A DNA stretch of 64,000 bases, from positions 1 through 64,000 of the forward strand of contig NZ_BIXY01000027.1 in NCBI RefSeq assembly GCF_008326305.1, read 5' to 3'. Of this stretch, positions 2,929-44,934 are shown piece by piece. Each line of letters opens with the position of its first letter. Position 1 is the first letter of the stretch. This DNA comes from Dictyobacter arantiisoli. GTDB taxonomy: Bacteria > Chloroflexota > Ktedonobacteria > Ktedonobacterales > Ktedonobacteraceae. A model generated the notes under the pieces. It did no database searches. It was not told the DNA's origin and saw only the letters and a list, made by a program, of their open reading frames with translations. Both the position numbers and the translations under genes were made by a program.

Positions 2929-2974
2929 CGTCGCTAACTCCTTATACTGTCGATATTTCACAACGAAATGAAAC

Positions 2975-3062
2975 ATCCAGCCCAGGCGAACGACTGTTAT
3001 AGGGTTAGATCCTCCCGGCTTCCTCGTGGTACTCCACTTTATCGCCAGTCGCCAGGAGAACA
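2975..3062 (-). promoter_or_regulatory. ZTP (pfl motif) riboswitch aptamer upstream of glyA-purH
   Basis: On the minus strand a 10-bp outer stem pairs the run at 3051-3060 with 3010-3019. Inside it are GACUGGCG (3043-3050), a GUGG-AGUA-CCAC hairpin (3025-3036) and GAGGAAGCC. About 20 nt further on is the conserved UCGCCUGGGC (2980-2989), whose CGCC can form the pseudoknot with UGGCG. This order and these motifs match the ZTP/pfl class, which senses Z nucleotides (AICAR derivatives) and is typically found before purH, glyA and folD. The location is therefore exactly as expected. A small hairpin (UUUCA/UGAAA, about 2957-2974) lies between the aptamer and the glyA ribosome site and may be part of the expression platform. 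Confidence 0.88.
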
Positions 3063-16418: not shown

Positions 16419-17909
16419 TTATGATGGTTCTTGTTGCTCGTCGGCGGCTTTGCGCATGGTGGGGAAGAGGATCACATCGCGGATCGATTCTTGATCCGCC
16501 ATAAGCATTGCCAGGCGATCAATACCCAGTCCAACGCCGCTGGTAGGTGGCATACCCACTTCGAGAGCCTCCAGAAAATCCTCATCTAGCACCTGTGCCT
16601 CATCATCGCCCTGGGCGCGCTGGCGAGCCTGATCCTCAAATCTGGCGCGTTGATCCAGGGGATCATTGAGCTCAGTATAGGCATTGCCACATTCTAACCC
16701 TCCGATAAAAGGTTGGAAGCGTTCGACCAGACCCGGGAGCGAGCGGTGCTGTTTGGTCAACGGCGAGACATCCTCGGGATAGTCCAATAAGAAGAGGGCC
16801 TGTTTTGTTGCTGGATGGTTGCTGCGGAAGATCTCGCTCTTGAGATCATCAATCAGGCGACCACGTCCCAGGTGAGGATCGACATCATAGTGTTTTTCGC
16901 GCATGGCCGCAGCCAGACTTTCCCGCTCAGGATATTTGCGCACATCAATGCCTGTAAACTCGGTGATGGCATCCAGTAGCGAGTAGCGTTTCCAGGGTGG
17001 CGTCAGATCGATTGTCACGCCTTGATAGGTGATGGTTGGTGTGCCAGTGATGGCAGTAGCGATGTTTGCCAGCATTTCTTCCACTAACTTCATCGTATCG
17101 TTATAGTCGGCATAGGCCATATAGAACTCGATCATAGTGAACTCGGGATTATGGCTGCGATCAATGCCCTCATTGCGGAAGTTGCGTCCGATCTCATAGA
17201 CACGTTCAAAGCCACCAACAAGCAGGCGCTTATGATAGAGTTCAATCGCGATACGTAAGAAAAGATCCCGTTCAAGCGTATTGTGATGAGTGATGAACGG
17301 ACGCGCATTTGCGCCACCATAAATTGGTTGTAGGATTGGTGTTTCCACCTCGATAAAATCATGCTGATCGAGATAATGGCGCATGGCGGTAATCATGCGA
17401 CTGCGAATGACAAAAATTCTTCTGATCTCATCCCCATTGGCGACCAGATCGAGATAGCGTTTGCGCTGCCGTGTATCCCGATCTTCCAGACCATGATACT
17501 TATCAGGTAGAGGACGTAAGCCTTTGGCGAGAATACGCAGCGCACGGACATGCAGAGTGCGCTCATTAGTGCGTGTTACAAATAAGAAGCCACTCACCTG
17601 AATAAAATCGCCCAGATCCAGCAGTTTGATCAGTTGATACGTTTCCACACCGACATCGTTCACGCGGATATACACCTGCATTCTGCCAGTGCCATCCTCT
17701 ATTTGAGCAAAGGTCGCTTTACCCATTTCGCGCAACAGACGGATGCGTCCGACAAGTGTATAGGAGCCTTCTGGACCGCTGAGGGCATCAAACTGAGCCA
17801 ATATTTCGGCAATGGTATGTGTACGTTCAACCGTATTGGGATAAGGATTGATGCCTAAATCGCGTAACGCTTGCACTCGTTGTATGCGTATAGCACGTTC
17901 TTCTGTCAT
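16419..17909 (-). CDS. lysS: Lysyl-tRNA synthetase, class II
   Basis: A 496-aa cytoplasmic enzyme charging tRNA-Lys. An N-terminal OB-fold (about residues 50-145, with [20 protein letters not shown]) is followed by the class-II core. Motif 2 includes [13 protein letters not shown] near the [10 protein letters not shown] segment, and motif 3 includes [12 protein letters not shown]. Length is normal for bacterial LysS. It starts with ATG 17909. greA lies upstream on the same strand, separated by a terminator. Confidence 0.96.
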
Positions 17910-18179: not shown

Positions 18180-18644
18180 TTACTCGATGGTGAGGATAGT
18201 ATATTCTCGGACGCCACCAGGAGTCGAAACGATCACGAGGTCACCGGCTTTATGGCCCAGTAAGGCTCTGCCCACCGGGGACTCGTTCGAAATACGTCCG
18301 GAGCTGGGATCGGCCTCAAAGGCTCCCACGAGGCGGTAATGATATTGGCGTCCATTGCTGGTTTCCAGATGGACCGTTGAACCCAGTGAAACCTGATCGC
18401 TGTGAACTTCATCGATCAATTTGGCACGGGCCAGCATCTCCTCGAGTTCGGAGATACGCTTTTCGAGCAGAGCATGCTGTGACTTGGCTTCTTCGTATGC
18501 GGCGTTGTCGATGACATCGCCTGATTCTTTGGCGTCACGAAGATATTGCGCGATCTCAGCGCGTTTGATAGTGCTCAAGTATTCGAGTTGATTGGCTGCA
18601 CGCTCTATTCCGTCGTTGGTGAGGAAAATTTCTTGTGATTCCAT
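18180..18644 (-). CDS. greA: Transcription elongation factor GreA
   Basis: A 154-aa factor that rescues backtracked RNA polymerase by stimulating transcript cleavage. The N-terminal coiled coil (about residues 10-75) carries the acidic tip in GDVIDNAAYEEAKSQ. The C-terminal FKBP-like domain ends with SPVGRALLGHKAGD and VSTPGG motifs. Length is normal. A terminator follows it. Confidence 0.95.
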   Translation of the reverse strand: MESQEIFLTNDGIERAANQLEYLSTIKRAEIAQYLRDAKESGDVIDNAAYEEAKSQHALLEKRISELEEMLARAKLIDEVHSDQVSLGSTVHLETSNGRQYHYRLVGAFEADPSSGRISNESPVGRALLGHKAGDLVIVSTPGGVREYTILTIE

Positions 18645-18736: not shown

Positions 18737-19594
18737 TCAATTTACATCGCCCCAGGTAATAGTGATACCTGTCCCAGAAAGATCGCGGAGTAATAATTCT
18801 CCTTGTTCATTCACATCCTCAGCCACGCCGCTGAGTAGCTTCGCTCCCTGATGCACTGTAACGGTGCGACCAAGGGTCGAAAGATGACGACGCCATTGCT
18901 CTCGTATCAAGCGAGAGATAGGTCCATGGCTCTGAGCCGTGGACTCGCGGACTTCTTGCTGTAAGGCCAGATAGCGTGTTTCGATTTGATACAGCAAACT
19001 GGCAATGAATGCCTCGCGACTCACTACATGGCCACACGCTTCTTCAAGCGTAATAGCGGTCTCTGTCAGCTCTGGTTTGGCCTGTAGTGTTTGCTTGTCG
19101 GTAGCAGATGCTCTGAGCCGACCATTGACATTCACCCCGATTCCAAGGATGGCAACCAGCTGTCCGGTATGATCGTGACTGGTCTCAATCAGGATTCCCG
19201 TAACTTTTCGTTCCCCAATCAGAATATCATTGGGCCATTTAATGGTTGCCTCGACACCACAAATATCAGCAATTGTTTGCACGACTGCCAGTGATGCAAT
19301 CATCACAAGCTGATAGGGTGGAAAGACGGGTCGGAGGACTGTAGATGACAAAACGTTCTTCCCTGCCATGTCGACCCAGTGCCTTCCTTGTCTGCCCTTA
19401 CCGGCTGTCTGGCTATCGGTAAGTACCACCACCCCTTCCTCTGACCCCGTCCGGGCCAGTTGCATGGCGAATGAATTTGTCGAATCTACTACGGGTTTAT
19501 AGATGATACGGTTGCCGATGCCTGTTAATTTTGTATCCAGAAGCCGCTGGATTTGTGCAACATCGAGTGTGTTGGATAGTGTAATCTCGTTCAA
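18737..19594 (-). CDS. birA: Biotin--[acetyl-CoA-carboxylase] ligase, no repressor domain
   Basis: A 285-aa enzyme that activates biotin with ATP and attaches it to biotin carboxyl carrier proteins. Seen are VVDSTNSFA, the nucleotide-loop motif AGKGRQGRHW, and KWPNDILIGERKVTGIL with GIGVNVNG. The N-terminal DNA-binding HTH of E. coli BirA is absent, so it should be enzyme only. The best start is TTG at 19594, since no in-frame ATG lies near the conserved region; the ribosome site is weak, which may mean low expression. Its upstream region carries a separate short structured transcript. Confidence 0.93.
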   Translation of the reverse strand: MNEITLSNTLDVAQIQRLLDTKLTGIGNRIIYKPVVDSTNSFAMQLARTGSEEGVVVLTDSQTAGKGRQGRHWVDMAGKNVLSSTVLRPVFPPYQLVMIASLAVVQTIADICGVEATIKWPNDILIGERKVTGILIETSHDHTGQLVAILGIGVNVNGRLRASATDKQTLQAKPELTETAITLEEACGHVVSREAFIASLLYQIETRYLALQQEVRESTAQSHGPISRLIREQWRRHLSTLGRTVTVHQGAKLLSGVAEDVNEQGELLLRDLSGTGITITWGDVN

Positions 19595-19840
19595 GCTCTA
19601 CCACTTCTATCTATCAATGGGACTATCTTTCCGTGCCTCCCAGTTATGGAGGCCCCGCCTTTCACGCTTCACGCTTAAAGAAACAGGCATCGCTCGTGGT
19701 GTGAAAAGATTTTTGTATTATATACGACCAGACCGATAGGATACAGTGTAAATATAGGAGATACCGTATAGGGGCCCGGCCCGTCTTGTATTGCGTGCCT
19801 TTATGCTACGAATCAATGATTAGATGAGATTGCTCGATTT
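19595..19840. other. birA upstream region
   Basis: This 246-nt stretch lies between birA and the terminator of the small transcript. It contains a CCTCCATAACTGGGAGG-type hairpin (about 19640-19660) and an AT-rich run near 19710-19760 that could hold the birA promoter. No coding sequence is supported. Confidence 0.4.
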
Positions 19841-19890
19841 ATAAAAATCCCAGAGCAAGGGCAAATGAGTTTTTTCGCCAATGCTCTGGG
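19841..19890 (-). terminator. Rho-independent terminator of the small transcript
   Basis: Minus strand: CCCAGAGCA...TGCTCTGGG (19890-19849), followed by ATTTTTAT. Confidence 0.85.
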
Positions 19891-19986
19891 GGTGCTGCAC
19901 AGGCAGGTAACATGCACTACCTTGCCAGTGAGTGTTCTTATCAACCCTTCACCAAGCTCCAAAGCCGGGTGCGAGACAAAGCGTAT

Positions 19987-20061
19987 TTAACGCCCCATCC
20001 CTCGTTTCTGGAAGGTGTGGGAAGTTACACCGCTGCCTGTGCAGCGAATACGTTCATGCAT
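19987..20061 (-). CDS. Possible 24-aa peptide in the small transcript
   Basis: ATG 20061 follows AAAGGAGG with a 9-nt spacer, one of the best ribosome sites in the window. The product is a 24-residue basic peptide beginning MHERIRCTGSG and ending KRGMGR. Its codons overlap the 5' arm of the long closing stem, so translation would prevent that stem forming. It could be a regulatory leader peptide or a genuine small protein; neither is established. Confidence 0.4.
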   Translation of the reverse strand: MHERIRCTGSGVTSHTFQKRGMGR

Positions 20062-20088
20062 TACACACCACCTCCTTTCGTTGTCGAT

Positions 20089-20118
20089 ATTGTACCATCA
20101 GTATTTAACTGTTGTCAA
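20089..20118 (-). promoter_or_regulatory. Strong sigma-70-like promoter of the small transcript
   Basis: Minus strand: consensus TTGACA (20118-20113), 18-nt spacer, TACAAT (20094-20089). Predicted start near 20082. Confidence 0.8.
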
Positions 20119-20927: not shown

Positions 20928-21107
20928 ATGCAGCAATACCTTGACTTGCTCGTCGATGCCCTCCTGGATGAGGGATTCACAGTAAGCGAAGCTCAGCGGC
21001 TCATCCAACTACAGCAAGAGTATGAGGAGCGTAAGGCGACGGAAGAGACCAATTATCATCGTTTTGTACGCTGGCTGGTAGAACACGGGCGTTTTAGCGA
21101 ATGGTAG
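20928..21107 (+). CDS. Small protein of 59 aa, unknown function
   Basis: ATG 20928 is preceded by AAGGAGGAA at good spacing, and the frame encodes a compact, mainly helical acidic protein beginning MQQYLDLLVDALLDEG. It includes SEAQRLIQLQQEYEERKA and ends FVRWLVEHGRFSEW. There is no membrane segment or Cys. The strong ribosome site and helical pattern support a real gene. I do not recognise it. A hairpin at 21187-21213 may end its transcript before the next gene. Confidence 0.65.
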   Translation: MQQYLDLLVDALLDEGFTVSEAQRLIQLQQEYEERKATEETNYHRFVRWLVEHGRFSEW

Positions 21108-21186
21108 CAGTGTCTCGATTTAGAATGCAAAGCAATCTTGCGACGCTCTTCGTGGATGTTGTACAATAAAAAGAGCGGAGCAGATG

Positions 21187-21213
21187 GGACGGCGTGGCAT
21201 TGCTACGCCGTCC
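21187..21213 (+). terminator. Terminator-like hairpin
   Basis: GGACGGCGT pairs with ACGCCGTCC, followed by TTATATTT. It lies 80 nt after the 59-aa protein and 63 nt before the fusion-enzyme start. Confidence 0.6.
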
Positions 21214-21275
21214 TTATATTTCCTAGAACAGCTCGGATAACTGGGCAAGTTGTCCGGACACAAGGGGAGGCCTCT

Positions 21276-44738: not shown

Positions 44739-44810
44739 GGGCGCTTAGCTCAGTGGGAGAGCGCTTCGTTCACACCGAAGAGGTCACTGGTTCGATACCA
44801 GTAGCGCCCA
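44739..44810 (+). tRNA. tRNA-Val (anticodon CAC)
   Basis: All four helices can be drawn: acceptor GGGCGCT/AGCGCCC, D stem GCTC/GAGC, anticodon stem CTTCG/CGAAG with loop TTCACAC, and T stem ACTGG/CCAGT with loop TTCGATA. Discriminator A is at 44810. The 3' CCA is not fully encoded (ACCC follows), so it must be added after transcription. 72 nt to the discriminator. Confidence 0.97.
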
Positions 44811-44934
44811 CCCTTTCTCCTGATGTAGATGTTTCCACACCTGAATTATATACGATTATCCCCGTATCTAGTTGTTGATTAGTACCATCAAATTTCGTTA
44901 CAACTATTCCAGCCCAACCAACCGTGTTTTTTCT

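Follow-up and report, generated by a model that had tools for sequence, protein, structure and literature searches.

A compact element upstream of birA

The window, by which we mean the whole stretch of 64,000 nucleotides of Dictyobacter arantiisoli DNA that was analyzed, holds a unit that runs from promoter to terminator on the minus strand. A preliminary description of this DNA had proposed a discrete structured transcript with a near-consensus promoter, an optimal Shine-Dalgarno (SD) sequence and ATG, a 24-codon open reading frame (ORF), a 13-bp closing stem, a hairpin inside the ORF that overlaps the 5' arm of that stem, and a strong terminator. We found each of these parts in place. What that description lacked was the strand, the pairing of the SD with an anti-SD strand within the ORF, and a second alternative pairing that releases the SD. 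A plus-strand reading was dropped, as it is the minus strand that carries the promoter, SD, and ORF. The features are as follows, where A1 is an alignment of 35 relatives and A, A', B, and B' are strands of the two predicted folds.

20089..20118, minus strand: sigma-70-type promoter, TTGACA-18-TACAAT, 11 of 12 consensus matches
~20082, minus strand: predicted RNA 5' end, from the promoter position
20069..20079, minus strand: extended SD GAAAGGAGGTG, invariant in A1, complementary to the 16S 3' tail
19987..20061, minus strand: mini-ORF MHERIRCTGSGVTSHTFQKRGMGR, start to stop; ATG at 20061, 24 codons, TAA ending at 19987
20031..20046, minus strand: local hairpin CGCUGC-ACAG-GCAGCG within the ORF, closed fold; 17 double-change cells, 35 sequences
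20033..20045, minus strand: strand A GCUGCACAGGCAG, 5' arm of the long-range (closing) stem; 13 of 13 pairs with A'
20008..20019, minus strand: strand B CACACCUUCCAG, in the ORF; partner is the SD region GGAG-GU-GGUGUG (closed fold) or B' (open fold)
19919..19928, minus strand: strand B' CUGGCAAGGU, partner of B in the open fold and in the minimum-free-energy structures of most birA-type relatives
19894..19906, minus strand: strand A' CUGCCUGUGCAGC, 3' arm of the long-range stem; double changes in 10 of 13 pairs, 95.6% of cells paired (inflated, as A' was picked by complementarity)
19843..19890, minus strand: intrinsic terminator hairpin with U5 tract, which forms in relatives too
18737..19594, minus strand: birA, nearest downstream gene; Pfam BPL_LplA_LipB and BPL_C
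18180-18644: greA, after birA in the order birA-greA-lysS
16419-17909: lysS, after greA in the same order

The predicted RNA is about 220 to 240 nt long and starts about 20 nt 5' of the mini-ORF. Its folding z-score is -5.3, and none of 200 shuffles was equally stable. The extended SD is the complement of the final 11 nt of the 16S-tail match GGCTGGATCACCTCCTTTC of the same genome. It is rare, with 10 copies in 7.2 Mb, one of which comes from the 16S tail read on the complementary strand. We considered whether the motif was a ribosomal antisense sequence and dropped this, as the downstream sequence, promoter, and ORF belong to the element.

The claim that the transcript fits no recognized RNA class held against Rfam 15: no family matched the element at the gathering or a relaxed threshold, and its counterparts at 22 related loci gave no match either. 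The best match (terC, E 1.2) lies outside the element at 19724-19787 and was treated as chance. The element resembles 6S RNA in its length of about 200 nt and its long closing stem. However, the 6S covariance model RF00013 had no match in this genome and the conserved SD and ORF are foreign to 6S RNA, so that identity was rejected. We found no description of the element in the open-access literature, which is weak evidence of absence. It is apparently an undescribed, tiny gene of Chloroflexota.

Elsewhere in the window there are a ZMP/ZTP riboswitch (2973-3062, minus strand; RF01750, 64.8 bits) and a tRNA-Val (CAC) gene (44739-44812, plus strand). A 59-residue ORF at 20928-21107 (plus strand) has a good SD, AGAAGGAGGAATC, and no Pfam match; it lies directly 5' of a terminator (21186-21214) and a nucleotidyltransferase-like gene.

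Distribution of the element

Of 61 related genomes, 35 had homologues by DNA search. The covariance model R1, built from the 5' half of the element, matched 39 of 47 genomes of the Ktedonobacteria class, including 14 of the 14 that are complete and clean. There is usually one copy per genome, as in the genome of the window. R1 also gave weaker matches elsewhere in the phylum, most of which share the order of parts when read; two distant matches (L076 and L089) were judged false from their sequence. The first of these (G023:C1 near 6060818) is a long near-perfect hairpin, GGGAACGTGGTGTGGTAGTGTA...TACACTACCACACCACGTCCC, preceding an aminotransferase-like gene.

Shorter related forms occur in other Chloroflexota, mostly immediately 5' of smpB. 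A second covariance model (R2), for this short smpB-linked form, found it in 44 of 400 genomes of the phylum. A scan for GAAAGGAGGTGRTGTGNRRTG in one genome per species returned at least 80 loci, and about 70 of the matches listed were labeled Chloroflexota or a subgroup of it. For most other Chloroflexota, the covariance and motif searches gave no match. Read from these results, the family is found in Ktedonobacteria and in a Limnocylindrales-like group, has sporadic members elsewhere, and is carried by Chloroflexota of soil and water. Three metagenome-assembled genomes (MAGs) labeled Steroidobacteraceae, Actinomycetota, and Proteobacteria (L128, L142, and L143, respectively) carry a Chloroflexota-type element, and the peptide of L143 is that of G033 (L028), a member of the Ktedonobacteria class. 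The labels or bins of these three are probably wrong.

The mini-ORF and its two predicted folds

We compared the mini-ORF across relatives. In 40 smpB-type loci, the start codon lies 15, 18, 21, or 24 nt from the conserved core; the spacing at 43 other loci is 13, 16, or 19 nt. These distances step by three; thus, insertions and deletions preserve the frame. Internal length differences in the birA-type ORF are likewise multiples of three, and starts (ATG, GTG, or TTG) and stops (TAG, TAA, or TGA) swap between relatives. Start, frame, and stop are retained over deep divergence, which supports a translated ORF. In many relatives, the third positions of codons 2 to 5 are mostly pyrimidine, often T, while the first and second positions vary (NNT); this pattern is the opposite of usual coding variation and holds in GC-rich genomes too.

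The retained frame, start, and stop would also fit a small conserved protein whose peptide is the product and whose mRNA is structured incidentally, as would amino-acid identity at codon 2, which exceeds that of column shuffles in both groups (uncorrected for phylogeny). However, the sequence of the predicted peptide and its length (13 to 28 residues) vary widely between clades, the best-conserved residues fall where RNA helices constrain the bases, and neither Pfam nor NCBIfam has a match to it. We therefore regard it as improbable that the peptide is the only product.

The ORF contains a strand, CACACCUUCC, that has two partners by complementarity: the SD region and, downstream, the strand CUGGNAGGU. 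In the closed fold, the SD-side GGUGUG pairs with the in-ORF CACACC across A1, with 5 of 6 pairs forming one helix, while the 5' GAAA of GAAAGGAGGTG stays unpaired. The core helix of SD and B is 97.7% paired in A1, with one compensated change (G-C to A-U, in L008); the SD side is nearly invariant, and the helix thus has little two-sided covariation. In the predicted open fold, B, the anti-SD strand, has CUGGNAGGU, further downstream, as its partner in place of the SD.

The 13-bp stem had been put forward for a covariation check among homologues, and compensatory changes are present in it. The two-sided changes were seen over 30 distinct sequences, and the covariation score was 0.434 versus 0.276 in shuffles. 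By a fairer control than percentage paired, the A' pick was better, in nearly all relatives, than the best one from dinucleotide-shuffled DNA. Because homologues carry these compensatory changes, the reading as a structured transcript with competing stems, the 5' arm of one lying in the mini-ORF, survives and is supported by the alignments. The support for competing stems exceeds what had been proposed, in that a second competing pair of helices involves the SD.

The short smpB-linked form shows the same folding logic in different sequences. Its closed fold pairs GAGGUG-AU-GUGCAGUG, from the SD through the start codon, with CGCUGCACCACCUC. This helix is 97.3% paired; changes in it mostly preserve pairing, and none is two-sided. 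Its B:B' helix, CACCACC-U-CGCAGG with CCUGCG-GGUGGUG, has 27 double-change cells versus 6.6 in shuffles. The 5' part alone likewise folds over the ribosome-binding site (RBS) in several other relatives. As judged by these comparisons, the RNA is one with an RBS-closed and an RBS-open fold that are mutually exclusive and both conserved.

When the 3' half was added in equilibrium folding, 17 smpB-type RNAs opened and none closed (n = 44), while 15 birA-type RNAs opened and 10 closed (n = 43). This shift is only partial. Thus, the two states would be near in energy, and a trigger or the kinetics of folding must matter. In one relative (L075, G042:C207), a second, perfect anti-SD, CATCACCTCCTTTCG, stands right after the mini-ORF stop and matches the SD region by complementarity over 15 nt; the first anti-SD, which adjoins it, has partly lost its pairing.

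An SD hidden by a structure that involves the ORF is known from toxin mRNAs. The hok mRNA has long-range pairing in the full RNA. In the Helicobacter pylori type I toxin aapA3, the SD is hidden by a hairpin inside the ORF (PMC6733600). The element is similarly a small mRNA with an SD-sequestering hairpin involving the ORF, here predicted from sequence comparison and folding, and a type I toxin mRNA of the Hok/AapA kind, with metastable SD-sequestering hairpins, would account for this likeness. However, the peptides are hydrophilic on average (mean GRAVY -0.51, n = 127), a consensus scan of 43 loci found no antisense promoter-like site in any of them, and the element is mostly single copy and conserved across the class and beyond. 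A toxin is therefore very improbable. Structured RNAs with a short conserved ORF and indels in multiples of three have also been described as Downstream-peptide/yfr6-type RNAs (Weinberg 2010, PMC2864571). In those, the conserved RNA is a 5' untranslated region, whereas the helices of the present element lie in and after the ORF, and Rfam has no match to it.

Genomic setting and a putative switch

In most Ktedonobacteria the element is followed by birA; in L139 greA-lysS comes next, and in L148 birA and lysS do. Nearly all smpB-type loci have smpB in this place, and several of them have a tmRNA gene nearby; in the genome of the window, smpB and the tmRNA gene are on another contig. The promoter recurs at a fixed distance, its -10 element ending 26 to 29 nt 5' of the start codon in 41 of 43 relatives, and the unit is by this measure more than a chance arrangement.

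Mini-ORFs with their own promoter, alternative helices, and a terminator before a gene are the layout of trp-type leader-peptide and erm-type translational attenuators, and the element has the same parts. We asked whether it is a cis-acting transcription attenuator, a leader of birA-greA-lysS (or of smpB in other clades) in which translation of a leader peptide sets read-through of the terminator. Such a role fits the position of the element, which precedes birA, greA-lysS, or smpB in the same direction at most loci. It also fits the scarcity of other promoters: promoter-like sites between the element and birA were found in 4 of 38 loci versus 4.8 expected, no excess over chance, and between the element and smpB in 0 of 61. 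Moreover, the promoter is still there in G015, G020, G023, and G025, genomes whose birA-linked copy has decayed. That birA and smpB show no promoter-like site of their own beyond the chance level and that the promoter outlasts a decayed element favor read-through into the gene.

However, the two folds both include the terminator, and the predicted structures showed no evident conserved antiterminator competing with it. One simple candidate, GCUUUGG against CCAGAGC in the window, was rejected: three unlinked paralogs (L021 to L023) keep the first and change the second. In contrast to trp and erm attenuators, the SD that is switched is that of the mini-ORF itself, the ORF has no run of a single amino acid, and unlinked copies persist. 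Three of the genomes with a decayed birA-linked element (G020, G023, and G025) retain an intact unlinked copy (L016 to L018). The paralogs L021 to L023 are 85 to 93% identical from -60 to +200, while their flanks on both sides are 55 to 66% identical, against 59% for random DNA. A convergent gene follows L023, L024, and L038, so the element is not always 5' of a regulated gene, and birA and smpB have no common function. An attenuator is thus possible but doubtful. We conclude, from the unlinked copies as compared here, that the unit is probably an independent gene, and that the gene that follows it often uses its promoter as well. In one clade the element is almost always next to smpB, and promoter-like sites are lacking before birA and smpB; these two observations suggest a role in cis beyond pure autonomy.

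The reading that we favor, by a narrow preference, is a translated mini-gene RNA that is autonomous, has a bistable RBS, and is perhaps also a leader. Comparison of relatives shows the promoter, the SD, the frame, both predicted folds, and the autonomy of unlinked copies. Together these suggest a compact RNA switch tied to translation, and translation, the alternative fold, and the very strong SD all appear to be under selection. For what would throw the switch, the preliminary description had offered translation or ligand binding. We found nothing in support of a ligand, and putative switching by ribosomes or translation is more economical. There is no invariant unpaired core outside the SD leader, and the middle domain is variable or absent in relatives.

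We infer transcription and translation of the unit and the 30S subunit as the trigger. In the nascent RNA, B would pair with the SD soon after transcription and close the RBS; in smpB-type relatives it would also cover the start codon. Alternatively, B:B' and A:A' would form one long hairpin over the ORF and leave the SD free, and the RNA could thereby toggle between an untranslated and a translatable form. A 30S subunit would most likely invade the closed form at the GAAA next to the SD, which is left unpaired and could admit the 16S tail; B would then be displaced and trapped by B', and A by A', and the mini-ORF would be translated. Its translation would report the availability of competent ribosomes, and candidate outputs are the peptide, an action of the RNA in trans, and read-through into birA or smpB. 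That the signal sensed is free 30S is our guess. A ribosome gauge of this kind, in which the free 16S 3' end binds GAAA, strand exchange displaces B, B' traps B, and one RNA records an excess of competent 30S and relays it to genes of ribosome rescue and elongation (smpB, greA, and lysS) or to targets in trans, is a speculative and rather unlikely extension.

The element is widespread and absent from Rfam, and would be an RNA gene of less than 250 nt in a phylum that to our knowledge has almost no RNA biology. Should the switch respond to free ribosomes, it would offer a direct and testable route to the way bacteria gauge translational capacity, as well as a ready-made riboregulator.

A third form of the element, found 5' of smpB in CF_ soil MAGs such as L158, L102, and L142, has a conserved peptide, MGDASGNPKTQ..SLQPF. 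Downstream partners likewise exist for its strands AAUCCAAAGACCC and UCACUUCAG.
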